From positions 40,306,191 to 40,370,190 of the forward strand of contig NC_088302.1 of NCBI RefSeq assembly GCF_032854445.1: DNA of 64,000 nt. Reading direction: 5' to 3'. Source of the stretch: Liolophura sinensis (Eukaryota > Mollusca > Polyplacophora > Chitonida > Chitonidae). Positions within the stretch are counted from its first letter, which is position 1, and each line of letters starts with the position of its first letter. The notes beneath the pieces are model-generated. The model was not told the origin of the DNA. It was given only the letters and a program-made list of their open reading frames with translations, and made no database searches. The translations under genes were made by a program, and so were the position numbers. This document shows positions 1,241 through 59,250 of this stretch, piece after piece.

Positions 1241-1353
1241 TTTCGCTTGGCCTGGCTATCGCTCTGCCCATCTGTATCGCTGTTGTCATCCTCCTGCTGG
1301 CTGTAATACTGCGGTTGTTGCTCCGTAAACGTAAGAAGGGACTGCAGAAAGAG
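1241..1353 (+). CDS. Exon: transmembrane helix and stop-transfer
   Basis: The acceptor is TTTGTTGCAG and the donor GAG|GTAAGTT. After two bases that finish a split codon, the only frame open to the donor reads a run of Leu, Ile, Val and Ala, then RLLLRKRKKGLQKE. This is a typical single-pass helix with positive residues on the cytoplasmic side. The exon is entered in phase 1 and left in phase 0. The preceding ectodomain exons are not in the window, so the topology (outside N-terminus, SH3 domains in the cytoplasm) is inferred. Confidence 0.7.
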
Positions 1354-4300
1354 GTAAGTTAACCAATAGATCTTGTTCCATTTATGCACAGCTGGAAATG
1401 TCTTGCTGACTGTGGGCTCTAGCTAACATGCAAGGTTGTGGTGAATTATTTTCAAAACTGAATGAACTGAAAATTGCAATTTTTCAGCCATATTGTTGCA
1501 AAACATTTCAATCTGAAACTGTATACACTTGACATATTACAATGGTATATGATTAAGGAAAAAAACTTCTGACTTAAATACAGAAATTGAAGTGAGAGGC
1601 TCAAAAAATTCCTCTTTAAAAGTCAAACATGCATTACTTCTGTTGATGACTCAATGAACATCAAGGTACATGTGAGATTCTGCGTTTTAAAAGTGTGTGA
1701 AAGGTAGCAATGTCTGGTTGAACTTCAGTTTGATGCCAAGATGGTTAAGGTTTTAGGTTGAGATTATTATGTTATATTTTGTAGCTGTGTGCTAGGTTGG
1801 ATAAGGTTTTAGATTGAGGTTGTGATGTTACATTTTCTAGTTTAGTGCTAGGTTGGATAAGGTTTTAGATTAAGATTATGGTGTTACACTTTGTAGCTCA
1901 GTGCTAGGTTGGGTAAGGTTTTAGATTGAGATTATGATGTTACATTTTGTAACTCTGTGCTAGGTTGGATAAGGTTTTATTATGATGTTATGATGTTGTT
2001 ATTTGTAGTTCTGTGCTAGGTTGGATGAGGTTTTAGATTGACATTATGATGTTGTTATTTGTAGTTCTGTGCTAGGTTGGATAAGGTTTTAGATTGAGGT
2101 TATGATGTTACATTTTGTAGTTCAGTGCTAGGTTGGGTAAGGTTTTAGATCGAGGTTATGATGTTACGTTTTGTAACTCTGCTAGGTTGTATGAGGTTTT
2201 AGATTGACATTATGATGTTGCATTTTGTAGTTCAGTGCTAGGTTGGATAAGGTTTTAGATTGAGATTATGATGTTACATTTTGTAACTCAGTGCTAGGTT
2301 GGATGAGGTTTTAGATTGAGGTTATGATGTTACATTTTGTAACTCTGTGCTAGGTTGGGTAAGGTTTTAGATTGAGGTTATGATGTTGCATTTTGTAACT
2401 CTGCTAGGTTGGATGAGGTTTTAGATTGAGGTTATGATGTTACATTTTGTAACTCTGCTAGGTTGGATGAGGTTTTAGATTGAGGTTATGATGTTGCATT
2501 TTGTAGTTCAGTGCTAGGTTGGATAAGGTTTTAGATTGAGGTTATGATGTTACATTTTGTAACTCTGTGCTAGGTTGGGTAAGGTTTTAGATTGAGGTTA
2601 TGATGTTACATTTTGTAACTCTGTGCTAGGTTGGATAAGGTTTTAGATTGACATGATGTTGTTATTTGTAGTTCAGTGCTAGGTTGGGCGAGGTTTTAGA
2701 TTGAGGTTATGATGTTACATTTTGTAGTTCATTGCTAGGCCGGATAAGGTTTTAGATTGACATTATGATGTTGTTATTTGTAGTTCTGTGCTAGGTTGGA
2801 TAAGGTTTTAGATTGAGGTTATGATGTTACATTTTGTAGTTCATTGCTAGGCCGGATAAGGTTTTAGATTGACATTATGGTGTTGTATTTTGTAGTTTAG
2901 TGCTAGGTTGGAGGAGGTTTTAGATTGACATTATGATGTTGTTATTTGTAGTTCTGTGCTAGGTTGGGCGAGGTTTTAGATTGAGGTTATGATGTTGTTA
3001 TTTGTAGTTCTGTGCTAGGTTGGGCGAGGTTTTAGATCGACATTATGATGTTGTTATTTGTAGTTCTGTGCTAGGTTGGATGAGGTTTTAGATTGAGGTT
3101 ATGATATTGTATTTTGTAGTTCAGTGCTAGGTTGGGCGAGGTTTTAGATCGACATTATGATGTTGTATTTTGTAGTTTAGTGCTAGGTTAGATAAGGTTT
3201 TAGATTGAGGTTAGGATATTACATTTTGTAGTTCTGTGCTAGGTTGGGCGAGGTTTTAGATTGACATTGTGATGTTACATTTTGTAGCTCTGTGCTAGGT
3301 TGGGCGAGGTTTTAGATTGACATGATGATGTTGTATTTTGTAGTTTAGTGCTGGGTTGGATGAGGTTTTAGATTGAGGTTATGATATTACATTTTGTAGT
3401 TCTGTGCTAGGTTGGGCGAGGTTTTAGATTGACATGATGATGTTGTATTTTGTAGTTTAGTGCTAGGTTGGATGAGGTTTTAGATTGAGGTTATGATATT
3501 ACATTTTGTAGTTCTGTGCTAGGTTGGGCGAGATTTTAGATCGACATTATGATGTTGTTATTTGTAGTTCTGTGCTAGGTTGGATGAGGTTTTAGATTGA
3601 GGTTATGATATTGTATTTTGTAGTTTAGTGCTAGGTTGGATGAGGTTTTAGATCGACATTATGATGTTGTTATTTGTAGTTCTGTGCTAGGTTGGATGAG
3701 GTTTTAGATTGAGGTTATGATATTGTATTTTGTAGTTTAGTGCTAGGTTGGATGAGGTTTTAGATTGACATTATGATGTTGTTATTTGTAGTTCAGTGCT
3801 AGGTTGGATAAGGTTTTAGATTGAGGTTATGATGTTACATTTTGTAGTTCATTGCTAGGCTGGATAAGGTTTTAGATAGACATTATGGTGTTGTATTTTG
3901 TAGTTTAGTGCTAGGTTGGATGAGGTTTTAGATTGACATTATGATGTTGTTATTTGTAGTTCTGTGCTAGGTTGGATAAGGTTTTAGATTGAGGTTATGA
4001 TGTTACATTTTGTAGTTCATTGCTAGGCTGGATAAGGTTTTAGATAGACATTATGGTGTTGTATTTTGTAGTTTAGTGCTAGGTTGGATGAGGTTTTAGA
4101 TTGACATTATGATGTTGTTATTTGTAGTTCTGTGCTAGGTTGGGCGAGGTTTTAGATCGACATTATGATTTTGTATTTTGTATTTCAGTGCTAGGTTGGA
4201 TGAGGTTTTAGATTGACATTATGATTTTGTATTTTGTAACTCTGTGCTAGGTTGGATGAGGTTTTAGATTGACATTATGATTTTGTATTTTGTAACTCTG

Positions 4301-7300
4301 TGCTAGATTGAGCGAGGTTTTATATTTGGGTCATGACTCAGTGCAAGGGCGAGCTATTTCAGATGTGTAGTTTCCTGTTAGCTACAATGCAAGGTTTTGT
4401 TGAGATCCAGCATTTAACCTTGAATAAATACGGAAGCTTTTACGTGTATCTTACAAAAATGTTCATTTTGAACAGTGGGCATTCTTTGTGGAGTTAGATT
4501 ATATGTAATATATGCAATATATGCAATAAATCAAAGTAGTTAGTCTTTACTGCCCTGAAATCAAGCCAGCTGTTGATGTTCATAGACAAAAAGATTTGTT
4601 TGTACTTGTACCTCTGATGCAAAGCACATGTACATCTGGTCCCGTTTCTTCAAAACTGTTTTTAGACATAATGCTAGATTTAACTTAAAGATATGTTTTC
4701 AGTTTTGTACTTGACTAAAAAACAATTTGCAAAACAGTGTATTAAATGTGAATTACATGTAAATTTGATGCTGTTGTACTTTGCATCAGAAGTGCATTGG
4801 CAACTGATTTGGGCTTAAATCTTATATAAATATAAAATATGGCTTAATACCAGTATTAGTTAATACACTTTCAAAGAACTGGACCCTGGTATTAAGATAC
4901 AAGGTATTAAATCTTCTTTTCATGTATCATTGTTCCAGTATCATTGTAGCTTTATAATGTTTTTATTGCATTAGATAATTGTACATGTATCCTATTTTCC
5001 ACTTAAAAAATTTTATTTATTTTTTTTATGGAACAAATTTGTTTTTGATTTATCCATGCATAACCATCTTTGATGTTTGATGATCATTATCAGGTGATCT
5101 GTTTAACAGAAATCACGATATGACAGCTGTATGTGACCTCTGACCTGTCATGTTCATGACATCCTCCTCACTCACACAGATACCCCAACATGCTCATATG
5201 ATGCTAATCTTCACTCGGCCTGTATCAGAACATTGTTGATTTCACTTATCAGTTTATGCGTACATGCTTAAAGACTTCTTGTGCATACATATTTGAATAG
5301 ATTTAACTAACTAAAGGTCATCTGTTAATGTTTACATTAGTAAACTTTGTATGACATGTGAATTTGACCATTTGATTCTGGTGTATACTGGTTATGTGTA
5401 TAAGTGTGTAAATATTGATACATATGGGTGAAGTCCGTGTGATATTGATTTTAGATCTTAGATATCGTATTGGTGGAATCTGTTATATTTAAGAATCAGG
5501 GTCATATCAATGTGGAGATTATCACTGATGGAAACTGTTCAAGCCCAGCTCATGCTGGCTTCCTCTCCGGCCGTACATGGGAAGGTCTGCCAGCAGCCTG
5601 CGGATGCTTGTGGGTTTCCCCCGGGCTCTGCCCGGTTTCCTCCCACCATATTGCTTCCGCCGTAGTATAAGTGAAATATTCTTGAGTACAGCGTAAAACA
5701 CCAATCAATCAAATCATTCAGTAGTGAGCTGGCCCTGGTCTAGTGATTAGAACCACTTTCACATGAGGTGTGAGTTCAAACCCAACCTTGGGCCAGGAAT
5801 TTGTACATTACCTAACTCTCAAAGGTAGTGGGGCCTTCATGACAATACACATTTGAGAATGCTCAAGTGACTGTGTACGCAGTGTAGTCTTCCACCAATA
5901 TGGTGCACGTCAACATTAACGTGCCAAAGGCGCTCTGGTTTTCTCCATCATTAAAACTGATGGCCACTGTGTAAGTAAAATGTTGTTGAGTATGCTGTTA
6001 AACAGTGGTCAAAAAAAAATAAACTGTATTTGTTACTGTATTTTGTTTGTCAGAGGGCAGAAAATGACAAAGAGCTATGGATGAACACGACTTTAGAGTT
6101 ACCCCCCTTGCCTCCCTCCCCTGTCAGTTTGGAGAATGGACACATCATTCCTCTCTCACAAGCAGATCCACAAAAAAATGGTAGGAAATATGTATTTTAC
6201 TCAAATATCTGTTACTTCAGAAAACCTCAAAAGAAAGAGAAGATATACTGTAGTCAAGTTTAATGGTGGGGGAAATTTCATCTACACTGACACAGTAAAA
6301 TAACATTGGCTCAGACGGGGAAAGCATCGGCTTGCTGCAGCTGTCAAGTCTTTGACTAATGAGATGGCATATTCTAATCCTGTTGCTCAGAAGATTTGTG
6401 TGGTACGTGTACTTGCTAAGGATGGTTGTTTACTCTAGTCTGATTTCTCTTTCCTCGAACCTTTAGCCCAAATGCATGATAAAAGTGAAAAATCTTACAC
6501 CAATCAAATAAATAAATAATAATCTCAGCGTTCTACTTTTTCAGCTGGTAGTTCGGAGTATGAAGTAATCCACGAGTTTGATGCGAGACTGGACAGTCAG
6601 TTGTCATTAACAATGGGGCAGTCACTAAGAGTGGTCGAAAAGGCCGACAATGGTTGGTGGAGAGGTTGTCATGGCAACAAATCAGGCTGGTTTCCTGGGG
6701 AGTATGTGAAACCTTTGAATGAAAAAAATGACCCAGGTATGAATTTCAGGGTCAAATTTTGTGTGATGTGGTGTACGTGACAGATAGTGATTGCTAAAAC
6801 AATATGACACAGAACTGACAATGTGCCCAAAAATTTTGTAGATATTTTTGTAAATATTAGGAAATCCTGTATGTACAGTTCAATATCAGGTACATGTATC
6901 AACATTTCAATATCAGGTACATGTATCAACAGTTCAATATCAGGTACATGTATCAACAGTCAATATCAGGTACATGTATCACAGTTCAATATCAGGTACA
7001 TGTATCAACAGTCAATATCAGGTACATGTATCAACAGTCAATATCAGGTACATGTATCAACAGTTCAATATCAGGGACATGTATCAACAGTTCAATATCT
7101 TTCAGATGTGAATTAGTGTAATATTTTGAATATTAATGTAGATATATGTGCGTTTCAATAGGAGGTCATGAAAATTCAATGTTTATGTGTGAATTAGTGT
7201 AATATTTTGAATACCTTGTATTCAGTCTTTTGAGCCACCTTTGCAACAAACATTTTTAAACATTCTGAGAGAACTATAGAGTGAAGAGAAAAAATTTGCA

Positions 7301-10300
7301 CAGTTTTATTAAGCTTACGTCTTTAGTGACACAAATAATCATTTTAAGTGTCATGTTCGTAATAAGTGTATGCATAAATTCCACTGGAAGATATGCTTTA
7401 GTGGTTGAAAGATTTACAGTGTGTGTATTTTAAAAGACAAGGCAGCACCTGGCTAAAACATATTTCAGTCGAAAGTAGTATTCTCAAGCTTTTTAAAAAG
7501 TATCATACTTTATTATTTCAATGAGATTTCAGTGAATAACATGTAGAACAGAATTTCAATATTACACAAATGGCTGGTGTGAATTGAGGCAGACATCATG
7601 AGAATTTTATCCAAAACCTGTTGCTATCAGATTGCGCAACCTTAGTTGTGATTTAGCCCTGTGATTTTTGAGATCATCTACAACAACTTAGTGGGTTTCC
7701 CCACAGTAACAGACAGTAACAGTCTCTGCCCAAACGGCATTCATCTCCCTAGTAGATCCAACTTAGACATGCTGTTCAAATTATTAAAATACCTTTTTGA
7801 TCATTCATGTTACTGTTTAGTCATCAGTTTCATTAGGAAAAATTCATTAGGGATGCCGAAGGTTGACAAGAATGAGAAGATGGCATCTCACTGGAAAATG
7901 CTTAAAATTAATTAAATCTTATGATATAAGTTTATGAGAATTATTGATGAATTCTCCTTTGTCTTTCTTTCATGCAAGGGATGATTTTTTTCTTTTTTTT
8001 TTATAATATACCGCAGAGTTATTGAAACGCTATGTTCATGTCGAGGTGATGACTAGGTCAGCACTGCTCTCATCTTAGAAGCCACCACTACAAAACTGAA
8101 GCATAAACTTCAGTGTCAGTTGAATGCCTAGATCAGCCTCAGTGGTGCTTAGATTTATTTCCATTTGTTCCAGAATTGAGCATGAATCTGGTTGTACAAG
8201 CATCCTGTTGTAATTTTGTAAACATATAATAGGGGTCAAAATCATCAGCACAACCCCTCTGAAGACTATGACCTGAACCAGGAATATCCCGGCTGTGCAT
8301 CTGCAGGCCACTTAAACTGTTAATGATATAGCAGGCTTACTGTATCAACTGTGTCCAGACGAAGTTTCACTAAACTTTTACAGGGTTGAAAAAAATCTAA
8401 AAAAGGATTTAAAGCAGCTTTATTATACTTTAAACAATAGTTTATCAGTGGACATAAGCATTAGTCAGGTGCTGTCTTTCACTTTAATAGGGGATCATGA
8501 ATATTCATCCTGTACTTTGACTTTCTAGAAATATTGGAGATTTCCAAGATTTCTGAAGTATCTGATGTCGACCAGAGCTTCACACCGTCTAATTCAGTCA
8601 AGCCAGCCGTCAGTTCCTTTCTCATCCGAAAGAAAGGTCAGGAAGATAAGTCCCCCGCTGAACTCCTGAAGGAGAGCAAAGGTCAAGGTTACAGTACAGA
8701 TCAGAATGCCAATGGAGTTATCCCTAATGGGAACATACAGCCAGCTGAAAAGGACACGCAGGAGGATATGAAACAGGTGCAGATTGTATGAACTATTAAC
8801 AGACACACATAAGTAATAAATAAATTTATAAAAATAAATCAAATAAATAAATAAATACATGTATATGTATGCATTACTTGTGTATATAGTAGTTTCTGGT
8901 TTTGATTGGCTGCATGCATGACCAAAGATTGCCTTAGCTTCTGCCACTAGCCTATCACCAATATGGTTGTGAGTTCAAAACCAGGTACAGCTCTTTCCGG
9001 CTACAGGCTTTTGTTCGTAGGTGTGTTGGTTATTTAGACAGGTGTGATGTTTTTTTCAAACTTTGAACAGTTTTCTGAACCAGAGACTTGACTGTCATTA
9101 TTGCATGAGCCAAATGCTCTTCAGTATGGTGTAAAGCACTTTTCAAGCAAATAAGCAATCTTCATACCCTGCTGTTGCTGGGTCAGCTACCTTGTTGTTT
9201 CAGGGATATCTGTTGCTAAAAATTTGAGTTTTAATAGTTTACTGTTTGGGACCCCTAATGTTTTGATCCATCACCTGTACACACCATTCTCTTGAGGACA
9301 GAGGATTCAAGTTTTTACCGAGTGTCTTAAGTATACGATATTTTGTATACAACATAAATTACATCACTAATTATTAAATAACAAGCCTACTTAGAGGCAT
9401 TTATGGCCGACAAATACATGTATATGCAACGCATTGCTTTCTCTGAAGTCTGCGCTGTACATGACTGCTCTGTACAGCTGTAGTGGTGTTTCAGAATTGG
9501 GAAACGAACTGGAGATCTTTGGCTTGTAAGCAGGTAAATTTCCCAGGGTTTCATGTTGGATACAAATTACGCATAAATATTTGACATTGCTGCGTGTGAT
9601 GTTTCTCAGCCTTATATACAACAAAAGGTGCTTTAAAAAACCTATATTGTATATGTATATATGTGTATGTAATGAGTCATATCAGTAAGTCACAGAAGCC
9701 CTGCAATTTATAAAATTCAAACCACTGATGTATGAAAACTCAAAACCAGTGATTTTTGGTACCAGTATCTGTTAGCACTATTCCAATTTAGTTTTTGCTG
9801 TTACTTTGGAATAGCCCAATTAATTACCTTTCACAAAATACCAGCCTCGTCTGTACAAATGCCACGCTCAAAATTGGTGAAAAAGTTACAAAGATTATAA
9901 AGCAAGTCACATTATAACTTTAGAATCATTTTAACAATTTAAATACTACAGGTACGAGTCTGGCATTTAATGCTTGAAACTTGATCGTGCGAATAATACA
10001 TTGCCTACAGTCTACATTCGATGTTGTTACATTGAACTGGCAATTGCATGAATGTCGTAAAATGACACACTGACCATGGCGCCACCATGGACAGACTGTC
10101 GGCAAACTGTTGGCCGACCCTTCACGAGCCCTGCGAGGATGCTAAGCAGAGGATGACTGCATGTTTGATCAGGGTCCGACCAGGCTCGATGTATAGTGGG
10201 CGTATGATACACAGACCATCTGACCACAATGGGCGTAGGATTTATGGTTAGAAATCTGGCTGTACTGTATGTCCTTATAAAAGATACATTTGATCTATAT

Positions 10301-13300
10301 GTGTTTCTTGTCACAGGAGAGCAAAGATGCTGCATTAAATTCCCTCGAAATTGGATCCTCAGTGGATGTTAACCTGTCAGATTTTCACGGTAAGAGTCTT
10401 CTTACAATCTGTGCGCTACCTGATTCCTCAACCTTTTTGCATTTTATTTGCACTTTCAGTGCCATTTTCAGTGCAATTTATGTGCAATTTCATTTTTGAG
10501 ACAACTACATTGGTTGGATTAGGAAATTTCAGGGATTTGCCAAAAGTATCATTTTATCACTCTACACTTAATATTTCCTTGAGAATATGCTCAGATAAAC
10601 ACCTTGCAAACATGGGAAAAAGTTGAAGGATTAAAAGTATACCTGTGAGCAGATCCAAGACTTGGTTGGAAATAATTTACTAGTCTACCATTCTTTTGAT
10701 ATGTATTAATATACGGGTGTCTTGTAATTTACTTTGTTTCTTAAATAAAATGAATTATGATCTAACCCCCATATACTTTGGCTGTGAGGTGTTTGCATAC
10801 AACCATTACATACATGTACCAGTCATGAATTTGACAACAATTGTAGTAAGGTCTTATGTCAGCTAGAGATAAGAGGAAATGACTAAAATGTGTTTTACAT
10901 GTAACTCGTCATGTTTACAGAGGAAGCAAACCTAAGCATGGATGAGAAGTACCGTGTCTGTTACCAATGGCAACCAGACCCATCAAATCCGAACCGAGTC
11001 AGTCTCAATGTGAATGACATTGTGACACGGCTTGAGGACATTGACGTGGGCTGGGTGCGGGTAAGGAAGGATGCCACAGGGGAGGAAGGGGTTGTGCCAC
11101 ACACCTACCTGGGAAGTTTGGAGGTGAGAACCTGTGGTTTTAAAGGCAAGATGCTGAATTTTATGGTGAAAAGAAAAGTCGCACTTATTAGAACAGTGTT
11201 GTGTGTTAGTTGTGTTGGGCTGTGCCTTCTGGTAATTTGATATGATGTCTTTTGGTATTTTGATGTTTTTAATTACACTATTTTTTGTGTTGTACAATAT
11301 ATTATAAAGTCTCAGTATTTTAAAATGTTTTGCAATAGTGTTACTGTACATGTGTCGTTCCATATTTTAATGCTCCTTAACTAGTTTGATTTAATTTGAT
11401 TGTTGATTAAGCTGTACTCAAGAATTCCTCACTTGTATGCTGGTGTCACAAGCTTTATTGGTGGTGAAAAGCAGGGTGCCTCAGGGTCAACCACCTTCCT
11501 CTTGGCATAGACCTGTTTTGAACTTTCCCACAGTTGTGTACTGTTGTGTATTGTTGTGTACTTGATATACACAAGTACTGGGCATGTTAATGTTAAAACT
11601 AAGATAACATGATAGTATGTGTATTTTTTATATGTATATCAAAGAAAAATATAATGCACAAAGCAATTTTATATTTTTTCTTTCAATATTAAGTAACATG
11701 TTATCTCAACAATTAGGGTAAGTATTCGTTACCAATTGTGGTTTCAGTTTCCACCAGATTTTCACATATAGGGACCAACCACTTTGTTTTCACGCTCTTG
11801 GATTGTTGCCCTAAAATGTGAAATTCTGGTGGAAATTGAAGACACAATTGATAATGAATACTTTGCCCAAATTGTTGAGTTAACATGTTCTTTAATACCG
11901 AGAGAAGACAGTATAAAGTTGCTTTCAGCATTTATATTTTCCTTGAGCACAGATGTGATGAGTATATATTCAGTTTTTTGTTTATACATGTATATCTCCT
12001 GACTGTTGACAATAGGACCCAGTGGTAGAGGCCTCACATAGGATCCAGGATCAGCTCCAAGTAAACAGACTGAGCTCTGGCCAGGAGCATCTCATGGGAA
12101 TAGGTAACAGTGATACTTCATGTTGTATGATATGAAGTTTTCTAGGCTGATTCTTTTGTCAATTGTTATAATTAATGATGGGCTTTGAGTATGACATTGG
12201 TAGTAATGGTACTAGATATTGGTTTCTGGGCTTGCATTGTCGTCCTGATTTAACCTTTGTGCTTACCCTGTGTATCTTGTAAGGTGAAATGGGGCTTAAA
12301 ATCACTGTGGTACTATCTCAGGTGCGTCAGAAGCAATTTGAAAGTCCCGACACAAAGGATGAGGGTCCAGGGGCTGTCTAGTCCCCAGAAACTAATTAAG
12401 ATGTTAGACAGCTGGAGATGCCCTGAAATCATTTTACAGAGTTTCCATTCTTCCCGTGGATCCATTGTAGCGCACATGTATGTGCATGGGCCTTCAGTTT
12501 GTTGGTCGCCATTAAATTGCTTTGACTTGATTTATTGTTTTTTTGTACCCAGTGCACTTTTGAAAATGACATGTTGCACAGGATCCATGAGATATCAACC
12601 AACCTCTCATATCCCCATTTTGTTTTTACCCCAGAGCACCGTGCCATCTACCCATACATTGCTCAGCATGCAGAGGATCTGAGTTTTGAGGAAGGGGAGA
12701 TAATCGTGGTTCTGAATGCCCTGGAAAATGGCTGGTGGCATGGCCTGAAGGGAGAAGAAGCTGGCTGGTTTCCAGGTTCCTATGTGGAGGTATGCATGTT
12801 AGGGACTAGTTTATTTGAAAAAGTACTAAAGTTTTTTGCGCTTAAGATCTATATTTCTTGCCTGACCAATGACATCACATGCGAGAATCCAGTATCTTCT
12901 TGTACTGAGTTGGCCGGTTGGTTGCTATGGGAGGTTTTTCCTGTACCTAGCCAATTATGGCATTTTCCTTCAGTCTGTGATCAGTTTCCCCCAACCATAA
13001 ATCTTCTGCTGTCAAGTTCTGTTGGTGTTTCAACCAATCTGATGTCAACTAATTAAAGAGTGGTCTACAGGATGTAAATCATAGGAGTGCAAACCTCCTA
13101 CGTCAAGTTTGACAACCAGTAGGATCTGTATATAAGTTTTGTATGTATAAGAAATTCCTTTGTAGCTCGCCTGTACAAAGTAAAGGGGCGGGGGGGGGGG
13201 GAGGTCAGTGTCAGTGAAGCTTTTTTTTAGCTCCTGTATAATGGGCTCTCATACATGGATTGAAGGTTAAGCGTTTTTTTTAGCTCCTGTTTAATGGGCT

Positions 13301-16300
13301 CTCATACAAGGATTGAAGGTTAAGCTTTTTTTAACTCTTGTATACTGGGCTATCTTACATGGATTGAAGGGTAGGCTTTTTTTTTTGCTCTCTAGTCTAG
13401 GGTATGGTGTGTACATTGTAAACGCACATTTTTGGATGGCAGGTTAGGCTTTGTTTTTACCTATTGTATATTGGGCTATCACACATGGATTGAAATTTTG
13501 GCTTTTGTTTCCTCCCTTGTTTAAGGTATGGTGTGTAAATGCACACTCTTAGATGGCAGGTTAAGCTTTTTTCTTAGCTCCTGTATAATGGCAATCATAC
13601 GTGGATCCCCAGCATACAGCGATAGAAAGTTATGTTCTGTTTGGGTTTTTTTTTTTTCATTTGTGTACATCTACAAATGGCCTACTGATGGAAGGCTGAA
13701 CTTTTTTATTGGCGTTAGTTTTATAGGATTTGTGAATGTTTTTTAATGATTCAGTTGATACACTTTCAGTTCAAGAATTCAGCAGTTACATAAACTGCAG
13801 TTTGTTTTCTGTAGTACACACTCTCTAGAAATTAAGCCTCCATGCAGGGCAATAATTTCTTGTATACAGGGTTTCTGTGACTTTAATGCTTATGAGATTT
13901 ATGGACTTTGCCAGATTTACCATTCTTGTAATTCACGGATTTATACAAGCCTTTCTTGTAGGGTTACAGTTTCTTATGCAGCCCCTTATCTAGATAATCT
14001 TTTTGTCTCCCTAGCTACTTTACCAGATTTGAAGAGTGTAAGAATTTACTGTGGTGTATACCAATTTATCTAGTTTACACTGTATCTGTAGAAAGCTTCC
14101 CACATCTGTATTAGTACTAGGGCCTATGACACTGACCGATGCATGTGCCTTCCTATGCTATGACGTAATGTTTAAACCATTAACGCAGACAGTGATTGTT
14201 GTCAGCTGAGTATTTGCTCAGCCAATCAGAGGGCTGCAGCTGCCACCCGTAGTACATGGATAGCCAATCATGGGAAGCGATTTGCATATCAAAGACCACT
14301 CCAGCCAATTGGTTTTCGAATACCTCACAATGAATTTTTTTTTACTACCATAGCTCAACATTTCCTCAGCCATTCACAGAATTGGAATTGTTCACGGATT
14401 GCCGCATGCAATTCACAATTTGCATATCAAAGATCACTGCCTAAGTTTTGTGCCTGAACTCCCCCCAATGATGTCTTTACCACCACCACACTTTACAACT
14501 TTCATTTTTATTCTGATTCCACTGTCTTGTTGACTGCTATACCAGGCAAGCTGGTGGGATTGTCAGAATGCCTTGTGATTTTTTGTTTCATGCATAAAAC
14601 TGACAGCCATTATATAAGTGAACATTTCTTGAGTATAGTGACAATGAGCTACAATGCAAATAAACATATCCTCACTGACTTGCATGTAACTGTTTCAGGG
14701 GGATATTGTACACACAAACCTGAGGACTGACACATTCGAGACAGTACATCTTTGCGATTTAGTAAAATTTTGTGAGAAGATTCATATTGTGGCACCTCAG
14801 ATAAAGCTTGAAAAGCGCTTATATAAGTTTTGCATGTTTATTGTAGGATATAAAGTGGCTGAATTTTCATGTTTTTTCAATTTTCAAATTACCGGTACTT
14901 GGTAAAAAAGCATTTGACATGTGAAGCAAAGGACAACATGTTAATTTGAAGCTAGTCTTTAGTATCGGTCTAAAATATCAAATATCCCTGTGTTTCAGTT
15001 GAAGGAAAGTGGTGGAAATACACCCCCTGGTGGAATATATGACAAGGGAGGTAACTTCCTGAGTGATCAAATATCAAGTGGACCAGGAAGTCAGATATCG
15101 TCTCAGAATTCCTCTCAGTCTGACTTAGTGAGACATTTAAGTGAAACGTTACTGAGACGGAAAGATTCCACAGGGGACACCGTTTCAACTGCATCTGCGT
15201 CTACATTAGGCTCAGACGAAACACGACCAAAACCTGTGAGGAAGGCTCCAGCACCTCCTGGTGGCACAAAGTCTACTAAGAAGAAATTTTTGCGCAGGCC
15301 AAGTAGACCTGCTCCACCTCCACCAGCCCCACCTACAGAGTCAGGAAAGGGAGATAATCCAAGCTCTGCATCTGATTCTGGAGACACAGTAATAATGCGC
15401 ACCGGTGACAGAGACTCTTGTGTTTCTTCAGAGAATAGATTCTCTGTGGACAGTTCAGTTGGACAGAACTCAGACTCTCCCGGGGAAAAGCCCCCATTAC
15501 CCAAACGCTTTGTCACACCGAAAATGGTGAAAATTCCCAAGAGGAAGTTGAAGCTACAAAACTCCACAATGTTACCGACACCTCCAGAGAGACCTGTGCC
15601 TCCCAGGCCATCCCCTGTGGAAGGAAAGAATAAGAAAAGTTACAAGAAAAAGTCATCAAAAAAATCTAAGAAGACTGAACCTAAATATCGGGGATCTGTG
15701 AGTAAACTGAGTAAGGCAGATATTTCTGGCCCTCTTCCTGTGGAAGAAAAGATAAGTGTGAAAACAGCAGACCCTGTGAGCCAGGCTTGTGAATCTGTGG
15801 TAGATTTGAATGGAAGCAAAGACGATGTGTTCAGAGATAATGAGGAAGTTTTGCCCAGAATTAACTCTCCAAGTCCATTGTCGTACAAAAAACAGCGTAT
15901 GGAGAAGACTCAGTCTCACGTTCCTCCACCTGTAGCTCCCAAGCCTAAACACGTGTCCCTAAACAGATTGTCACAAAATTCTTACCGACACTCTGGTTCA
16001 GACGTGGACAGGTCCCCCAGGAGCAGGAGTAACTCACCCATAATAAATGGTCAACTACCAGTCATCAGGGTGTCTGAGCCAGAAGTGCAGCATCCCGTGC
16101 CAAAACCACGACGACGCAACTCATCAGAGAACGAGATAAACTCCGAGGGAAATATACCTATCGAGATCGTGGATACAAGGTGGGTGGGGATAATGTCTTA
16201 GGTGATACATGTGACTTGCGTATAGAGATAGGTGAGCAGGAATACATACATATATGTCGTCTCCAGAGATAACTCACCTTTTAGAGCTTGTCGATAGTGA

Positions 16301-17463
16301 GTGAGTGACTATATATTATCTGGTGATAGCTTTCATGTGGGTGAGTAGGGGTAATGTCTCGGTGGATAACTCATCTATATAGATCGTGGATACTGTACAA
16401 TGTAGGCGAGTGGGGATATATGTGTATAGAGTCAGGGGATAACCTATTGAGATTGTGTATAGCAGGTGAGTGGGGATATTGTGCCAGGGGATAACTCACT
16501 TATAGAGATTGTAGATATTCTAGGTGAGTGAGGCTATGGACTCCGGGGGTTCATTATAACTCATTATAATTGTGGATATTCTGAGGTGGTTGGGAGGGGG
16601 GAGGGGGGATGTGTAGAGCTCCTGACAAAAATTGCGTATATCATAGTCTTGGAGGGTGGGGGCAACATACCTATTGAAATTGTGGATAGTCTGTAGTCTT
16701 TGGTGATAGCAAAACCACATAGATTGTGAAGATTGTTCGTTACATACCTATAGTGATTGATAAGAAAAAGTTTAGTTATAGCCTAAGTATCATATTTGAG
16801 CTTTGATTCTGTTTTGGACACCTGCATCAATTACTTGTGCTACAGATTTGAATAAATACAAAAATGCAGAATACTAATGAAGTCCTGGCAAAATATCAGT
16901 GTCTTTGACGGGAAGCTAAATAAGTTTTCATTCTGTTTATTAATCTTATCTCTGCCACAGGTTGAGGCAGAAGAAGAAATCACTGAAGAAGGCTGTGCGT
17001 AATTACACAGGGAACAAAGGAGAGCTGAGTTTTGAACAAGGCAGCTTTATTAAACAGATTAATGAGGTATAGTATTAATGAGTTTTTTTATTTTTTTTGT
17101 TTATTTTTTTAAAGAAAACCTAAGATAGCTGTACCATCAACTCACCACTAACTAAGGAATTATACAGAATGGAGTTACTTTAAAGAACCATGTATATCTA
17201 TCATATCAATGTGTTGGTCATTTTGTCTTTATCAGAGTTGAAAACACATTTTGAAGAGCGAGTGATATGAATACTCATTAATTATATGACCAGCTTGTTA
17301 TCTCCTAAGCACCATTGTTGAAAGGGCTTTACCCGGTTACTGTGAATTGCAGGTAGCTGATCGCCCTGGCTGGTATATGGGGATGTTGGCGGATGGCACA
17401 GTAGGCCAATTCCATGAGAGCAATGTGGAAGATCCAACACTACACAAGCACAGCTTGGCCTGA
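1241..17463 (+). CDS. Multi-SH3 protein with putative transmembrane segment (3' part of gene, 11 exons)
   Basis: Exons are 1241-1353, 6054-6180, 6545-6736, 8529-8776, 10317-10389, 10921-11123, 12016-12103, 12635-12789, 14999-16179, 16961-17066 and 17353-17463. All have AG/GT borders and matching phases, giving about 864 residues. In order there is a hydrophobic segment (residues 2-23 or 27) followed by RKRKK, SH3-1 (about 84-139), a linker, SH3-2 (about 256-318), SH3-3 (349-399), a proline/serine/lysine-rich linker (400-792) and a divergent SH3-4 (about 802-855). PxxP sites include 476-486, 499-511, 563-569, 597-605, 707-716 and 765-772. SH3 domains bind proline-rich ligands, so an adaptor or scaffold role is likely, with possible self-binding. 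The 5' end is outside the window. The SH3 part is secure; adding exon 1241-1353 across a 4.7 kb intron is inferred from phase and juxtamembrane charge. I do not recognise the orthologue. Confidence 0.88.
1738..4330. repeat. 56-bp minisatellite, about 46 units, intronic
   Basis: The unit contains GTGCTAGGTTGGATAAGG and TTTTAGATTGAGGTTATG. Unit variants (TTACATTTTGTA, TTGTTATTTGTA, TTGTATTTTGTA) occur in ordered blocks. The early part (to about 2700) is mostly a single unit type; later parts show dimers and trimers. It lies in the intron after the transmembrane exon. Confidence 0.95.
5534..5716 (+). mobile_element. SINE-A copy, 5'-truncated
   Basis: It carries AGCTCATGCTGGCTTCC, GGGAAGGTCTGCCAGCA and CCCCCGGGCTCTGCCCGG, and ends GCGTAAAACACCAATCAATC, like the copies with target-site duplications at 23468, 31963, 46003 and 48457. 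Confidence 0.85.
5725..6018 (+). mobile_element. SINE-C: different tRNA-derived SINE, ends at splice acceptor
   Basis: The tRNA-like head has CTGGTCTAGTGATTAG (A-box-like) and GTGAGTTCAAACCC (B-box-like). The body differs from SINE-A (GTCAACATTAACGTGCC). It ends in an A-rich tail just before the acceptor at 6053, so part of the acceptor region may derive from the element. Confidence 0.65.
6054..6180 (+). CDS. Exon: juxtamembrane proline motif
   Basis: The acceptor TTTGTTTGTCAG leads into the frame RAENDKELWMNTTLELPPLPPSP, and the donor is ATG|GTAGGA. It is entered in phase 0 and left in phase 1. The PPLPPSP stretch is a possible SH3 ligand close to the membrane. A SINE-like element ends about 35 bases upstream of the acceptor. 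Confidence 0.8.
6470..6520 (+). mobile_element. SINE-A tail fragment
   Basis: It holds only the end of the element (AAAAGTGAAAAATCTTACAC, then CAATCAAATAAATAAATAAT), 25 bases before the SH3-1 exon acceptor. Confidence 0.5.
6545..6736 (+). CDS. Exon: SH3 domain 1 (complete)
   Basis: One exon encodes an entire SH3 domain. It shows an ALYDY-like start (VIHEFDA), an acidic RT loop (LDSQLSLTMGQ), the WW pair of the specificity pocket (DNGWWRG) and the terminal GWFPGEYVKPL with the conserved Pro and Tyr. All ligand-contact positions look intact. Phase 1 on both sides makes it a symmetrical exon, easily shuffled or skipped. Confidence 0.93.
6869..7100. repeat. 25-27-bp minisatellite, about 9 units, intronic
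   Basis: The unit is CAATATCAGGTACATGTATC plus AACAGT(T). Each unit carries the palindrome TACATGTA. Because the unit is short and stop-free, spurious open frames appear on both strands. Confidence 0.92.
7101..8528. other. Intron sequence without recognised features
   Basis: AT-rich intron between SH3-1 and the linker exon. I see no conserved reading frame or repeat with other copies in the window. Confidence 0.5.
8529..8776 (+). CDS. Exon: hydrophilic linker
   Basis: The acceptor TTGACTTTCTAG and donor CAG|GTGCAG bound a frame of 82 full codons rich in Ser, Lys, Gln and Asp, with no domain that I recognise. It separates SH3-1 from SH3-2. Phases 1 and 0 match the neighbours. The frame reads into a stop 13 bases past the donor, which supports the splice. 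Confidence 0.82.
8945..9165 (+). mobile_element. Degenerate tRNA-derived SINE
   Basis: CTATCACCAATATGGTTGTG and GAGTTCAAAACCAGG resemble the B-box region of SINE-A. CTTCAGTATGGTGTAAAGCA near its end resembles the SINE-A end. It is heavily diverged. Confidence 0.4.
9760..10275 (+). mobile_element. Dispersed repeat D/C composite, copy 1
   Basis: The first part (to about 10000) matches copies at 26890, 44380 and 52030 (TTTTTGCTGTTACTTTGGAA, AATTACCTTTCACAAAATA). The second part (about 10040-10275) matches 44600-44805 (GTTTGATCAGG, GACCAGGCTCGA, GATACACAGACCATCTGACC), ending in GGCTGTACTGTATG. Confidence 0.75.
10317..10389 (+). CDS. Exon: short linker
   Basis: The acceptor TTTCTTGTCACAG and donor CACG|GTAAGAG bound 24 codons (ESKDAALNSLEIGSSVDVNL...). 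Phases 0 and 1 fit the flanking exons. It follows directly after a dispersed repeat copy (about 9760-10275). Confidence 0.78.
10921..11123 (+). CDS. Exon: SH3 domain 2
   Basis: Sixty-seven codons give an atypical SH3. CYQWQPD stands at the ALYDY position, followed by a long RT loop (SNPNRVSLNVNDIV), VGWVRVRKD with a single Trp, and GVVPHTYLGSLE with the conserved Pro and Tyr. The donor is GAG|GTGAGA. Phases 1 and 0. Confidence 0.88.
11633..11952. repeat. Long foldback (inverted repeat), arms about 148 bp
   Basis: The left arm, about 11633-11780, pairs with the right arm, about 11800-11952, around a spacer of about 19 bases. Examples are AACATGTTATCTCAACAATT against the reverse complement AACATGTTAACTCAACAATT, and TTTCCACCAGATTTTCACAT against TTTCCACCAGAATTTCACAT. 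Arms look roughly 75-80% matched by eye. It is probably a foldback or MITE-type DNA element within the intron. Confidence 0.85.
12016..12103 (+). CDS. Exon: linker between SH3-2 and SH3-3
   Basis: The acceptor CTGTTGACAATAG and donor ATAG|GTAACA bound 29 codons (DPVVEASHRIQDQLQVNRLS...), which look amphipathic or helical. Phases 0 and 1. The exon starts about 60 bases after a 320-bp foldback repeat in the preceding intron. Confidence 0.8.
12635..12789 (+). CDS. Exon: SH3 domain 3
   Basis: The acceptor TTTTGTTTTTACCCCAG leads into a near-canonical SH3: AIYPYIA, AEDLSFEEGEII, ENGWWHG and AGWFPGSYVE, with all conserved aromatic positions and the Pro present. The donor is GAG|GTATGC. Phases 1 and 0. 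Confidence 0.93.
12790..14998. other. Intron, mostly unique sequence
   Basis: Apart from the tandem array at 13216-13610 and a SINE-A-like tail scrap near 14600-14650, I see no coding exon. Two similar pieces (TTTGCATATCAAAGACCACT near 14281 and its relative near 14420) suggest a short local duplication. Confidence 0.5.
13216..13610. repeat. Degenerate 50-70-bp tandem repeat, intronic
   Basis: About seven units begin AGCTTTTTTT and contain AGCTCCTGTATAATGGGC and CATGGATTGAAGGTTA. A G-run (13187-13201) precedes it. An unlike middle unit with GGTATGGTGTGTA occurs twice, so the array has two unit types. Confidence 0.75.
14999..16179 (+). CDS. Large exon: proline/serine/lysine-rich disordered region
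   Basis: This exon has 393 codons of low-complexity, probably disordered sequence. SH3-ligand motifs include APAPPGG, RPAPPPPAPP, KPPLPKR (class II), RPVPPRPSP, PPPVAPKPK and PVPKPRRR. A lysine-rich block lies near residues 609-624 and there are Ser-rich stretches suited to phosphorylation. The acceptor is TGTGTTTCAG; the donor ACAAG|GTGGGT is in phase 2. Reading through the donor meets a stop after six codons. The opposite-strand open frames over it are composition shadows. Confidence 0.9.
16961..17066 (+). CDS. Exon: first half of SH3 domain 4
   Basis: The acceptor TTATCTCTGCCACAG is followed by one base completing a split Arg codon, then LRQKKKSLKKAVRNYTGNKG and ELSFEQGSF. The ELSFEQG turn is SH3-like. 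The donor is GAG|GTATAG. Phases 2 and 0. Confidence 0.85.
17353..17463 (+). CDS. Exon: end of SH3 domain 4 and C-terminus
   Basis: The acceptor TGTGAATTGCAG is followed by VADRPGWYMGMLADGTVGQ, FHESNVEDPTLHKHSLA and TGA at 17461-17463. The end of the SH3 fold is recognisable, but the usual Pro and Tyr of the ALFPxNYV end are His and Asn, so canonical PxxP binding is doubtful. Confidence 0.86.
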   Translation, partial: VADRPGWYMGMLADGTVGQFHESNVEDPTLHKHSLA

Positions 17464-38309: not shown

Positions 38310-39290
38310 TCTTTCTATGCAAAAGCTTCATTACACACTCACCTGTGTGACCTATTGTCCCTGTGTCCTACCTTCATCACACACTCACCTGTCTCTGTTT
38401 CCCATCTTCATCACACACTTACCTGTCTCATGCACCTGTCTCCGTGTCGTGGCTTCATCACATGCTCACTTGTTTCTGTGTCATACCTTTGTCACACACT
38501 CACCTGTCTGTGTGTCAAACCTTCATCACACACACACACAGACATGTCTCTGTGTCATACATGTGTACCTTCATCACACACACACACTTGTTGCTGTGTC
38601 AAACCTTCATCACACACTCACTTGTTGCTGTGTCATACCTTCATCACACACACACTTGTTGCTGTGTCAAACCTTCATCACACACTCACTTGTTGCTGTG
38701 TCAAACCTTCATCACACACTCACTTGTTGCTGTGTCAAACCTTCATCACACACTCACTTGTTGCTGTTTCAAACCTTCATCACACACTCACTTGTTGCTG
38801 TGTCAAACCTTCATCACACACTCACTTGTTGCTGTGTCAAACCTTCATCACACACTCACTTGTTGCTGTGTCAAACCTTCATCACACACTCACTTGTTGC
38901 TGTGTCAAACCTTCATCACACACACACTTGTTGCTGTGTCAAACCTTCATCACACACTCACTTGTTGCTGTGTCAAACCTTCATCACACACTCACTTGTT
39001 GCTGTGTCAAACCTTCATCACACACTCACTTGTTGCTGTGTCATACCTTCATCACACACACACTTGTTGCTGTGTCAAACCTTCATCACACACACACTTG
39101 TTGCTGTGTCATACCTTCATCACACACACACTTGTTGCTGTGTCATACCTTCATCACACACTCACCTGTCTCTGTTTTGCATCTTCATCATACACTTACC
39201 TGTCATCAACATTACGCACCTGTCACACATTACGCAACATTACGCACCTGTCACACACACACACTTGTTGCTGTGTCATACCTTCATCAC
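38310..39290. repeat. 34-bp minisatellite, first block (about 28 units)
   Basis: The unit is CTTGTTGCTGTGTCAAACCT plus TCATCACACACTCA, with CA-expanded variants. The period of 34 is one more than 33, so each unit shifts the frame. All three plus frames stay open for over 300 codons without meaning a gene. Confidence 0.95.
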
Positions 39291-39312
39291 ACAGAGAGTG
39301 CACATGCACTCT

Positions 39313-39375
39313 AAGGATGCCTTCGTCTTCATATATCTGAAAAATTGTTAAGTATGACCTTAAATCCCAAGCACT
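39313..39375 (+). mobile_element. SINE-B tail fragment between minisatellite blocks
   Basis: TTCATATATCTGAAAAATTG then TTAAGTATGACCTTAAATCC matches the end of SINE-B. It separates the two blocks of the 34-bp array. Confidence 0.6.
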
Positions 39376-39399
39376 CACTCACTCGCTCACACTGCCTGT

Positions 39400-41045
39400 C
39401 CTTGTGTCATACCCTCGTTACACGCTCACCTGTCTCTGTACCATACTTTCATCACACTCTCCCCTGTCTCAGTGCTATGCCTTCATCACACTTCATAACT
39501 TCATCATGCACTCACCTGTCTCTGTACCATACTTTCATCACACACTCCCCTGTCTCTGTACCATACTTTCATCACATACTCACCTGTCTCGGTGCTATGC
39601 CTTCACACACTCCCCTGTCTCTGTACCATCCTTTCATCACACACTCACCTGTCTGTGTTGTACACTCATCACACACTCACCTGTCTGTCTCTGTACCATA
39701 CCTTCATCACACACTCCCCTGTCTCAGTGCTATGCCTTCATCACATACTCACCTGTGTGCCATACTTTCATCCCACACTCACCTGTCTCTTTACCTTGCG
39801 TTCATCACACACGCGCCAGCTCCTGTGCGATACTTTCATCACACTCTCCCCTGTCTGTACTATACTTTCATCACACACTCCCCTGTTTCTGTACCATACC
39901 TTCATTACATGCTCTCCTGTCTCTGTGTCATACCTGCATCACATGCTCCCCTGTCTGTGTCACACTTTCATCACATGCTCCCCTGTCTCTGTACCATACC
40001 TTCATCACACACTCCCCTGTCTCTGTACCATACCTTCATCACACACTCACCTGTCTCTGTACCATACCTTCATCACACACTCCCCTGTCTCTGTACCATA
40101 CCTTCGTCACATTCTCCCCTGTTTCTGTACCATACCTTCATCACATGCTCCCCTGTCTGTGTCACACTTTCATCACACTCTCCCCTCTCTGTACCATACT
40201 TTCATCACGCACTCCCCTGTCTCTGTACCATACTTTCATCACACACTCACCTGTCTCTGTACCATACTTTCATCACACACTCACCTGTTTCTGTACCATA
40301 CCTGCATCACATGCTCTCCTGTCTCTGTACCATACTTTCATCACACACTCACCTGTCTCTGTACCATACTTTCATCACACACTCACCTGTCTCTGTACCA
40401 TACTTTCATCACACATTCACCTGTCTCTGTACCATACCTGCACCACATGCTCACCTGTCTGTGTCACACTTTCATCACACACTCCCCTGTCTCTGTACCA
40501 TACTTTCATCACACACTCACCTGTCTCTGTACCATACCTTCATCACATGCTCCCCTGTCTGTGTCACACTTTCATCACACACTCCCCTGTCTCTGTACCA
40601 TACTTTCATCACACACTCCCTTGTCCCTGTAGCATACCTTCATCACATGCTCTCCTGTCTCTGTGTCACACTTTCATCACACACTCCCCTGTCTCTGTAC
40701 CATACTTTCATCACATGCTCTCCTGTCTCTGTACCATACCTTCATCACATTCTCCCCTGTCTGTGTGACACTTTCATCACATGCTCTCCTGTCTCTGTAC
40801 CATACCTTCATCCCATGCTCCCCTGTCTGTGTCACACTTTCATCACATGCTCCCCTGTCTGTGTCACACTTTCATCACACACTCCCCTGTCTCTGTGCCA
40901 TACCTTCATCACATGCTCTCCTGTCTCTGTGTCACACTTTCATCACATGCTCCCCTGTCTGTGTCACACTTTCATCACATGCTCCCCTGTCTCAGTACCA
41001 TACCTTCATTACACACTCACCTCTCTCTGTGCCATACATGTACCT
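39400..41045. repeat. 34-bp minisatellite, second block (about 48 units)
   Basis: The unit is ACCTGTCTCTGTACCATACT plus TTCATCACACACTC, clearly related to the first block (shared TTCATCACACACTC) but with its own variants (ATGCTCCCCTGTCTGTGTCA). It gives stop-free frames of up to 607 codons in all three frames. Confidence 0.95.
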
Positions 41046-41501
41046 ATCTCTCTGATCTACATTCATCTCATACTCACCATACCTTTGTCATGCAGTCATG
41101 GGTTTGCATTTTCTGTGCACACATCCATCTTTACTCCTTTAACAAAAGGTATTATGTATGTCCAGTAGGTTGTGCAAAACTGTTGTGTGGCTTTATTAAT
41201 TTTTGTTGATATTGTATACCTGAATTTCCACTTCATACCCATGGCCTGTGCAATATAATATAATACTGTTTTGTGTCTCTGTCCATGTAGGTCACTTGTG
41301 CTCAAGTACATGTTCATGTACAAAGAACCTCTTCTGGTTCCACCAATCAGAGAATGTACAGTGATTACATAACGCCTCTGATGTATACTTAGTGATCAGA
41401 TTGCTTGCACCCCCGTTTTCTCCAGAGGTGATATTAAATTCCCCTGGCCTCTGACAGCATGCGCCATCTGTATGACATAACCGGGTTGCCCAGAGTGGGT
41501 G

Positions 41502-44814: not shown

Positions 44815-45500
44815 CATCATGTCCACTATGTCTTTTTGTCCCATCCTGTCCACTCTCTACCCTCTGCACCCATCCTGTCCACTCTCTACCCTCTGCACCC
44901 ATCTTGTCCACTCTATACCTTCTGCACCCATCCTGTCCACTCTATACCTTCTGCACCCATTCTGTCCACTCTATACCTTCTGCACCCATCTTGTCTATTC
45001 TATACCTTCTGCACCCAACCTGTCCACTCTATACCTTCAGCCACCATCCTGTCCACTCTATACCTTCTGCACCCATCTTGTCCACTCTATACCTTCTGCA
45101 CCCATCCTGTCCACTCTATACCTTCAGCCACCATCCTGTCCACTCTATAACATCTGCACCCATCCTGTCCACTCTATACCTTCTGCACCCATCTTGTCCA
45201 TTCTATACCTTCTGCACCCATCTTGTCCATTCTATACCCTCTGCACCCAACCTGTCCACTCTATACCTTCTGCACCCATCATGTCCACTCTATACCTTCT
45301 GCACTCAACCTGTCCATTCTATACCTTCTGCATCCAACCTGTCCACTCTATACCTTCTGCACCCATCCTGTCCACTCTATACCTTCTGCACCCATCCTGT
45401 CCACTCTATACCCTCTGCACCCATCTTGTCCACTCTATACCCTCTGCACCCATCCTGTCCACTCTATACCTTCTGCACCCATCTGTCCACTGTATATCTG
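44815..45500. repeat. 30-bp minisatellite, about 23 units
   Basis: The unit is CATCCTGTCCACTCTATACC plus TTCTGCACCC. The 30-base period gives 10-residue repeats, open in all three plus frames. It starts right at the end of the 44 kb element. Confidence 0.95.
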
Positions 45501-45539
45501 CTGGTTTCATTATGTCCACTTCTGCCAGTTTCCTCCACA

Positions 45540-45990
45540 ATAATGCCCACAGTCCCATCAAGTCTTGTGGTTCCATAATGCCCACTCTGTGTCTTCTGGT
45601 CTCATAATGCCCATTCTGTGTCTTCTGGTCTCATAATGCCCACTCTGTGTCTTCTGTCTCACAATGCCCACTCTGTGTCTTCTGGTCTCATAATGCCCAC
45701 TCTGTGTCTTCTGGTCTCATAATGCCCACTCTGTGTCTTCTGGTCTCATAATGCCCACTCTGTGTCTTCTGGTCTCATAATGCCCACTCTGTGTCTTCTG
45801 GTCTCATAATGCCCACTCTGTGTCTTCTGGTCTCATAATGCCCACTCTGTATCTTCTGGTCTCATAATGCCACTCTGTGTCTTCTGGTCTCATAATGCCC
45901 ACTCTGTATCTTCTGGTCTCATCATTCCCACTCTATATCTTCTGGTCCCATAATGCCGACTCTGTATGTTCATTCTGTATTTTCTGGTCT
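45540..45990. repeat. 29-bp minisatellite, about 14 units
   Basis: The unit is CTCATAATGCCCACTCTGTG plus TCTTCTGGT. It is very homogeneous and shares CCACTCT with the preceding array. Confidence 0.95.
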
Positions 45991-46002
45991 TATAATGCAC
46001 AC

Positions 46003-46263
46003 ATGGCTCAGTTGGTAAGCGCACTAGTGCAGGGTAATGACCCAGGAGCCTCTCACCAATGCGGTCATTGTGAGTTCAAGTCCAGCTCATGCTGGCTTCC
46101 TTTCCAGCCATAAGTGGGAAGGTCTGCAGCAACCTGCGGATGGTCTTGGGTTTCCCTCGGGCTCTGCCCGGTTTCCTCCCACCATAATGCTTGCCACTGT
46201 CATATAAGTGAAATATTCTTGAGTACGGCATAAAACACCAATCAAATAGAAAAATAAATAAAT
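46003..46263 (+). mobile_element. SINE-A reference copy (261 bp) with 11-bp target-site duplication
   Basis: It is flanked by ATAATGCACAC at 45992-46002 and 46264-46274, both from the minisatellite unit that it split. The head ATGGCTCAGTTGGTAAGCGC is strongly tRNA-like (A box); GTGAGTTCAAGTCC is the B box. The body has TTTCCCTCGGGCTCTGCCCG and the end AAAACACCAATCAAAT with an (AAAT)n tail. Confidence 0.95.
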
Positions 46264-46274
46264 ATAATGCACAC

Positions 46275-58628: not shown

Positions 58629-59250
58629 GAATCCTGTATTAGGTGGGGTGTCATGAGTCCTGTATTAGGTGGGGTCATTCATGTGTCAGTGTCATGGAAT
58701 CCTGTATTAGGTGGGGTCATTCATGTGTCAGTGTCATGGAATCCTGTATTAGGTGGAGTGTTATGGAATCCTGTATTAGGTGGGGTCATTCATGTGTCAG
58801 TGTCATGGAATCCTGTATTAGGTGGGGTGTTATGGAATCCTGTATTAGGTGGGGTCATTCATGTGTCATTGTCATGGCATCCTGTATTAGGTGGGGTCAT
58901 TGATGTCTCAGTGTCATGGAATCCTGTATTAGGTGGAGTGTTATGGAATCCTGTATTAGGTGGGGTCATTGATGTCTCAGGGTCATGGAATCCTGTATTA
59001 GGTGGAGTGTTATGGAATCCTGTATTAGGTGGAGTGTTATGGAATCCTGTATTAGGTGGAGTGTTATGGAATCCTGTATTAGGTGGAGTGTTATGGCATC
59101 CTGTATTAGGTGGGGTCATTCATGTCTCAGTGTCATGGAATCCTGTATTAGGTGGGGTGTTATGGAATCCTGTATTAGGTGGGGTGTTATGGAATCCTGT
59201 ATTAGGTGGGGTCATTCATGTCTCACTATTGTGGAGTCATTTATTAGGTT
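58627..59250. repeat. 27/41-bp minisatellite, about 20 units
   Basis: The core ATCCTGTATTAGGTGG is followed either by GGTGTTATGGA or by GGTCATTCATGTGTCAGTGT plus CATGGA. Mixed unit lengths keep frames open on both strands (246 and 86 codons), which are not taken as genes. Confidence 0.95.

Follow-up and report, generated by a model that had tools for sequence, protein, structure and literature searches.

A putative chiton gene joining a mucin-like ectodomain, a membrane span and four SH3 domains

SH3 adaptors usually reach the membrane through receptors, lipids or phosphotyrosine. The SH3 adaptors known from animals are free in the cytosol, and we know of none that combines a stalk, a transmembrane (TM) segment and an SH3 array. 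The subject of this report is a locus of the chiton Liolophura sinensis at which these three parts appear to be encoded together. It was found in a 64,000-nucleotide stretch of DNA (the window), which is contig NC_088302.1 (C8), 40306191-40370190, + strand, in a genome that was searched as 609,464,459 bases in 632 contigs. The 40 kb located 5' of the window was also read, and its coordinates are given as L002.

Membrane-associated SH3 proteins and the chiton locus

The closest known design appears to be that of yeast Fus1, or of yeast Msb2 and Sho1 fused in one chain. Fus1 has a single TM segment, a Ser/Thr-rich O-glycosylated N-terminal ectodomain that lacks a cleaved signal, and a cytoplasmic C-terminal SH3 domain. 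It differs from the chiton protein in being fungal, about half as long and involved in mating-cell fusion, and the likeness is drawn from its described features. Fus1 has a single C-terminal SH3 domain, whereas four are predicted here, and the arrangement of a Ser/Thr-rich ectodomain without a signal peptide followed by a TM segment holds for the chiton protein only if the ATG at L002:5330 is the start. The membrane proteins Pex13 and TANGO1 also have an SH3 domain, but they have only one and belong to other compartments. Nck, Grb2, p47phox and Pacsin have the SH3 domains that are most like individual domains of the chiton protein in sequence matches. These proteins are soluble, however, and the domain order is not shared; SH2, PX and F-BAR domains were looked for in the chiton protein and none was found.

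According to PMC8533825, yeast Sho1 spans the membrane four times, has a C-terminal SH3 domain and is found in complexes with Hkr1, Msb2 and Opy2, which are O-glycosylated single-pass proteins. The resemblance to the chiton protein is that an O-glycosylated single-pass sensor works with a membrane-bound SH3 domain, but in yeast the glycosylated head and the SH3 domain are in separate proteins and Sho1 has four TM segments, whereas here there would be one chain. SH3PXD2B (Tks4) has an N-terminal PX domain followed by four SH3 domains, according to PMC3160312. It is likewise a membrane-directed scaffold with four SH3 domains, but it begins with PX and has no TM segment. Among the open-access papers listed in literature searches, judged from titles and abstract openings, none described an animal protein with a TM plus multi-SH3 architecture. 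The novelty proposed here is one of design; an unnamed animal homologue may well be deposited.

The explanation that is favored here, with reasonable though far from complete confidence, is that a single gene at this locus encodes an SH3 scaffold that crosses the plasma membrane once, with a mucin-like head outside and four SH3 domains in the cytoplasm. A broader proposal is put forward more tentatively, at slightly less than even chances. It states that the protein represents an undescribed class of animal membrane receptor-scaffolds that combine a surface sensor of mucin type with an array of four SH3 domains in one chain. Such a class would be an independent counterpart of what yeast has in Fus1 and in Msb2-Sho1, and it would include the first animal single-pass surface protein known to us with more than one cytoplasmic SH3 domain.

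The exon chain, its membrane segment and its SH3 domains

The exon chain and its phases, the SH3 domains, one TM-like segment and the composition of the ectodomain were computed directly. Ten + strand exons (window 1241-17463) chain in a single frame to a stop at 17461-17463 (Table 1). All ten are flanked by AG on the 5' side and GT on the 3' side with matching phases, the last exon closing at the stop, and the acceptor scores within the gene range from 1.21 to 3.14. The domain order across the exons is the one claimed in an earlier note on this DNA, namely TM, SH3, SH3, SH3, Pro-rich linker and SH3. The length given there, about 864 residues, has to be corrected to 835 residues from the TM segment to the stop, or 1061 residues in the joined model that includes the upstream exon. 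The start of the gene falls outside the window, about 4.7 kb 5' of base 1, and the window opens within an intron. All of the exons would lie on one transcript, judging from their frames and splice sites.

Table 1. Predicted coding exons of the TM-SH3 gene and other coordinates of the locus
Feature	Position	Strand	Evidence
First coding exon: ATG, mucin-like ectodomain of 226 residues, GTAAGT donor in phase 1	L002:5330-6008 = C8:40301520-40302198, 3993-4671 bp 5' of the first base of the window	+	
Second coding exon: TM segment (protein residues 227-254) and stop-transfer RKRKK	1241..1353	+	splice sites, phases, hydropathy
Juxtamembrane exon with PPLPPSP motif	6054..6180	+	phase 0 to 1, GT/AG
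SH3-1	6545..6736	+	Pfam SH3_1 39.5 bits
SH3-1/SH3-2 linker, part one	8529..8776	+	phase 1 to 0, GT/AG
SH3-1/SH3-2 linker, part two	10317..10389	+	phase 0 to 1, GT/AG
SH3-2, divergent	10921..11123	+	Pfam SH3_1 28.4 bits
SH3-3, canonical	12637..12789	+	Pfam SH3_1 54.1 bits; lowest-scoring acceptor in the gene (1.21)
393-residue linker, rich in Pro, Ser and basic residues	14999..16179	+	exon chain, motif counts
SH3-4, first half	16961..17066	+	Pfam SH3_2 27.7 bits, halves joined
SH3-4 second half, C-terminus, stop	17353..17463	+	alignment: pocket Pro and Tyr replaced
Satellite in intron 1354-6053	1748-4326		period 56, 46 copies
Putative kinase open reading frame (ORF), 247 amino acids	24369-25112	+	PK_Tyr_Ser-Thr 65.6 bits
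Minisatellite arrays	38356-41037, 44840-47732, 48852-50145, 58629-59264		marked strand skew

The TM exon has the borders tgcag/TTTCGC ... AAAGAG/gtaagt, with entry in phase 1 and exit in phase 0. Its translation contains a hydrophobic run of 28 residues and then RKRKK, which bears out the claim that a hydrophobic exon with a basic stop-transfer is phase-compatible with the SH3 exons. The hydropathy reaches 3.27 over 19 residues (KD19), compared with 0.82 for the next best segment, and the run is the sole strongly hydrophobic segment of TM length in the protein. Its inner flank is basic. The net charge is 0 before the TM segment and +4 after it, so the SH3 side is expected to be inside under the positive-inside rule. 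When the genome was searched at the DNA level with the TM exon, only the exon itself was matched. A scan was also made of 104 kb, on both strands and at five settings, for spliceable exons of 75-300 bases that encode a TM-like segment and a basic tail. It returned 1241-1353 alone at all five settings (with a shorter alternative donor in two) and nothing on the reverse strand, the settings having been picked with this exon already known. The donor of the TM exon (5.2) is the top-scoring donor of the gene.

The presence of four SH3 domains, which had been predicted from the letters, agrees with the curated Pfam cut-offs. SH3-1, SH3-2 and SH3-3 exceed that of SH3_1 (PF00018, 22.9 bits), and SH3-4 exceeds that of SH3_2 (PF07653, 21.8 bits) while scoring 22.6 bits with SH3_1, just below the cut-off. 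No other Pfam family is over its cut-off in the window exons. By the general rules for SH3 pocket residues, SH3-1 and SH3-3 retain the aromatic, WW and P..Y residues of the pocket in alignments. SH3-2 retains one W and the P..Y, and its RT loop is poor in acidic residues. An AlphaFold2 model of the SH3-2 exon alone, made with no alignment, had a mean predicted local distance difference test score (pLDDT) of 46.8 and was uninformative.

Among solved structures the best matches are p47phox, Grb2 and Nck2 for SH3-1, sorting nexin-9 (SNX9) for SH3-2 (E 0.00011), and p47phox, myosin-IB and Gas7 for SH3-3. SH3-4 has weak matches to Grb2 and Pacsin. No single adaptor family fits the protein, because the closest solved structures differ domain by domain. 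It has also been considered that the gene descends from a PX-SH3 scaffold of the Tks4/SH3PXD2B type in which the PX domain was replaced by a TM anchor, an origin that would be compatible with a membrane protein. The order SH3, SH3, SH3, Pro-rich, SH3 matches that of Tks4, with its proline-rich linker, and p47phox comes first for both SH3-1 and SH3-3. However, Grb2 fits SH3-1 about as well (35.5 vs 36.6 bits, best domain), SH3-2 and SH3-4 match other families first, and no PX domain was found in the exons of the gene or in the three + frames of the 40 kb upstream, where a PX split over short exons could escape. In the genome search, no PX lay within 1 Mb of an SH3 on one contig among the matches listed (at least 20 PX and at least 64 SH3_1). 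The absence of PX-SH3 genes from the genome cannot be inferred from this, because such genes were not recovered as pairs. Descent from a PX-SH3 scaffold is regarded as very improbable.

The linker between SH3-1 and SH3-2 is about 120 residues long. The 393-residue linker that precedes SH3-4 contains 51 Pro, 67 Lys/Arg and 43 Asp/Glu, and five consensus class I/II SH3 ligands are found in it (RKAPAPP, RPAPPPP, PPLPKR, PTPPER and RPVPPRP). By eye, the end of this exon and its donor seem to recur several times in degraded form in the intron on its 3' side (16180-16700), in words like GAGATCGTGGATAC and AGGTGGGTGGGG; these copies are a possible source of alternative donors.

The upstream stalk exon and the probable topology of the protein

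A long + strand ORF at L002:5321-6016 stands out in the 40 kb; its distance from the start of the window is 4.0-4.7 kb. From the ATG at L002:5330 it runs for 226 codons and one base up to a GTAAGT donor after L002:6008, and the spare base leaves it in phase 1, the phase in which the TM exon is entered. An in-frame TAA terminates 9 bases 5' of this ATG. The stop-free run is 232 codons long, compared with at most 171 codons when the 40 kb was shuffled 200 times by mononucleotides, and the sense frame has a plain codon score of 0.158 per codon against a 99% null of 0.032.

The encoded stalk is directly N-terminal to the TM segment. Its 226 residues include 44 Ser, 32 Thr and 24 Pro (44% S/T/P), 5 Lys/Arg and no Cys, and there are five N-glycosylation sequons (N-x-S/T). 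By composition the stalk is mucin-like, the sort of sequence that is found outside cells, and not a folded receptor head; like the ectodomains of membrane mucins it is rich in S/T/P, and it is probably both O- and N-glycosylated. No recognized ectodomain (Ig, FN3, EGF, LRR and the like) is over the Pfam cut-off in the stalk. No Pfam domain is over cut-off in the three + frames of the 40 kb upstream, where the one sub-threshold match was Gliadin (E 0.094). The stalk and TM segment together gave matches far below cut-off only, to fungal Psg1 (E 0.009), SKG6 (E 0.047) and two weaker families. The suggestion that an upstream ectodomain could make the protein a receptor thus holds in part: an ectodomain of 226 residues is predicted, but the Cys-free S/T/P stalk with no recognized domain gives no support to a classical ligand-binding receptor. 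The claim of a single-pass membrane protein is supported by the phases, the rarity of such a TM exon and the in-phase mucin-like exon upstream.

How the N-terminus of such a protein would reach the outside depends on where translation starts. In the first 40 residues from the ATG at L002:5330 the hydropathy is at most 1.04 over 8 residues, which is not a signal peptide. Since neither a Pfam ectodomain nor a convincing signal-peptide exon turned up upstream, type III signal-anchor topology (N out, C in) is most likely. Examples of type III signal-anchor proteins are Fus1, glycophorin C and neuregulin. The same scaffold could instead be of type I, with a signal-peptide exon further upstream spliced into the stalk exon, for example at a strong acceptor at L002:5692, in which case translation would not begin at L002:5330. 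Ectodomains of this length normally have signal peptides, and the stalk ORF contains acceptors of 3.07 at L002:5692 and 2.14 at L002:5571, which are good ones within the range of the gene. In frame with the stalk ORF there is also a short ATG-led stretch, MFLLWL (L002:5300-5320), closed by the TAA that shortly precedes the stalk ATG; should this TAA be polymorphic or a mistake in the assembly, the start of the stalk would shift. However, the stalk ORF is S/T-rich and open back to the ATG and is closed before it. In the 35.4 kb upstream there was 1 signal-peptide-like first exon on the forward strand (about 22.6 kb upstream) and 6 on the reverse control strand. The forward candidate was not adopted, and these counts give no sign of a missed signal peptide. 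A type I protein is considered unlikely, although it is the least unlikely of the alternatives.

Weighing the model and its possible function

Several observations weigh against a single gene for a type III membrane scaffold. It is uncommon for an ectodomain as long as 226 residues to lack a signal peptide, and a signal exon may have escaped detection. The synonymous-only codon score of the stalk (0.032) is just below the 95% null (0.034), and high scores are reached by stop-broken antisense frames too, namely 0.045 in the plain test (6 stops) and 0.075 in the synonymous-only test (14 stops). The TM exon has a plain score of -0.047 per codon against a 95% null of 0.062 and a synonymous-only score of 0.057 against 0.085. 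Its antisense frame outscores the sense frame, with 0.213 plain (99% null 0.197) and 0.082 synonymous-only. One possible reason for the low scores of the TM exon is the training set, which was small (1974 codons) and hydrophilic. The pocket of SH3-4 is degenerate, with P and Y lost (QFHESNV compared with FPGEYV, VPHTYL and FPGSYV in the other three). Finally, the five class I/II motifs of the long linker compare with a mean of 2.2 in shuffles of its own composition (P=0.074, not significant). It had been suggested that many PxxP ligands allow self-association or autoinhibition. The ligands are there, 18 PxxP in the whole protein, and specific self-ligands in the linker are possible, but autoinhibition, although possible, is not favored by the shuffles.

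The codon scores are also relevant to the possibility that the locus produces two products or contains two genes. One would be a soluble four-SH3 adaptor with its own promoter, starting at the Met of WMNTTLEL in exon 6054 or at another ATG. The other, at 1241-1353, would be either an antisense exon or a membrane protein with no relation to the adaptor. Exon 6054-6180 does contain an internal Met, animal multi-SH3 adaptors are normally soluble, and the intron between the two parts (1354-6053) is long and more than half filled by the satellite that lies 3' of the TM exon. The TM exon fails the codon tests. An antisense gene across this exon was considered and judged unlikely; the ORF of 135 amino acids has no Met and no donor over threshold. 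Two acceptor-like sites (3.6 and 2.9) belong to this ORF and count against the favored gene model, because they leave an antisense terminal exon compatible with the splice signals. On the other hand, the TM exon does not look terminal, since it ends in the best donor of the gene in a phase that matches the next exon. The acceptor of exon 6054 is strong (2.93), and its frame has no Met from the preceding stop to the acceptor. Two separate products are considered improbable, more so than a type I protein.

From the single-gene model we infer the topology, glycosylation and partners of the protein and a sensing of crowding or tension. The N-terminal mucin-like ectodomain, probably O- and N-glycosylated, would be outside the cell, and the TM segment would be a type III signal-anchor, with RKRKK as the stop-transfer that holds it. 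The cytoplasmic part, of about 800 residues, would bear SH3-1, SH3-2, SH3-3, the long Pro/Ser/basic linker and SH3-4. The protein is most likely a membrane-fixed version of the soluble multi-SH3 adaptors. SH3-1 and SH3-3, whose pockets are intact, may bring proline-rich partners to the membrane, probably regulators of actin or of endocytosis. The linker may offer docking sites for other SH3 proteins or for the SH3 domains of the protein itself. The stalk may put the scaffold into the glycocalyx, or it may sense crowding or tension there. If this is true, the TM segment, glycosylated head and SH3 array would connect the surface to proline-rich cytoskeletal regulators with no intermediate. Has the mucin-SH3 coupling that yeast uses in osmosensing and mating re-evolved in animals? 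Conservation of the design in molluscs would make it a new type of surface scaffold and would allow this question to be tested.

A genome search that used exon 6054 through SH3-3 as the query, and was not aimed at a second TM-SH3 gene, gave 25 matches, of which 6 fall within the gene and 19 at other places. The strongest of these 19 was to the second SH3 domain of a Nck-like gene on C12 (44% over 57 residues). This gene (L006:738-1826, - strand) has a frame of 362 amino acids that holds three SH3 domains and the beginning of an SH2 domain, the latter recognized by eye. A cluster on C6 (L007:5496-7934, + strand) has an open frame of 812 amino acids with several SH3 domains and proline-rich stretches, and it resembles SH3D19.

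Elsewhere in the window, the uninterrupted ORF with a protein kinase domain is possibly an intronless kinase gene; it has LNDIKPDN where HRDLKPxN is usual. The minisatellite arrays are large and yield long, probably spurious ORFs, for example at 39315-41168 (617 amino acids).

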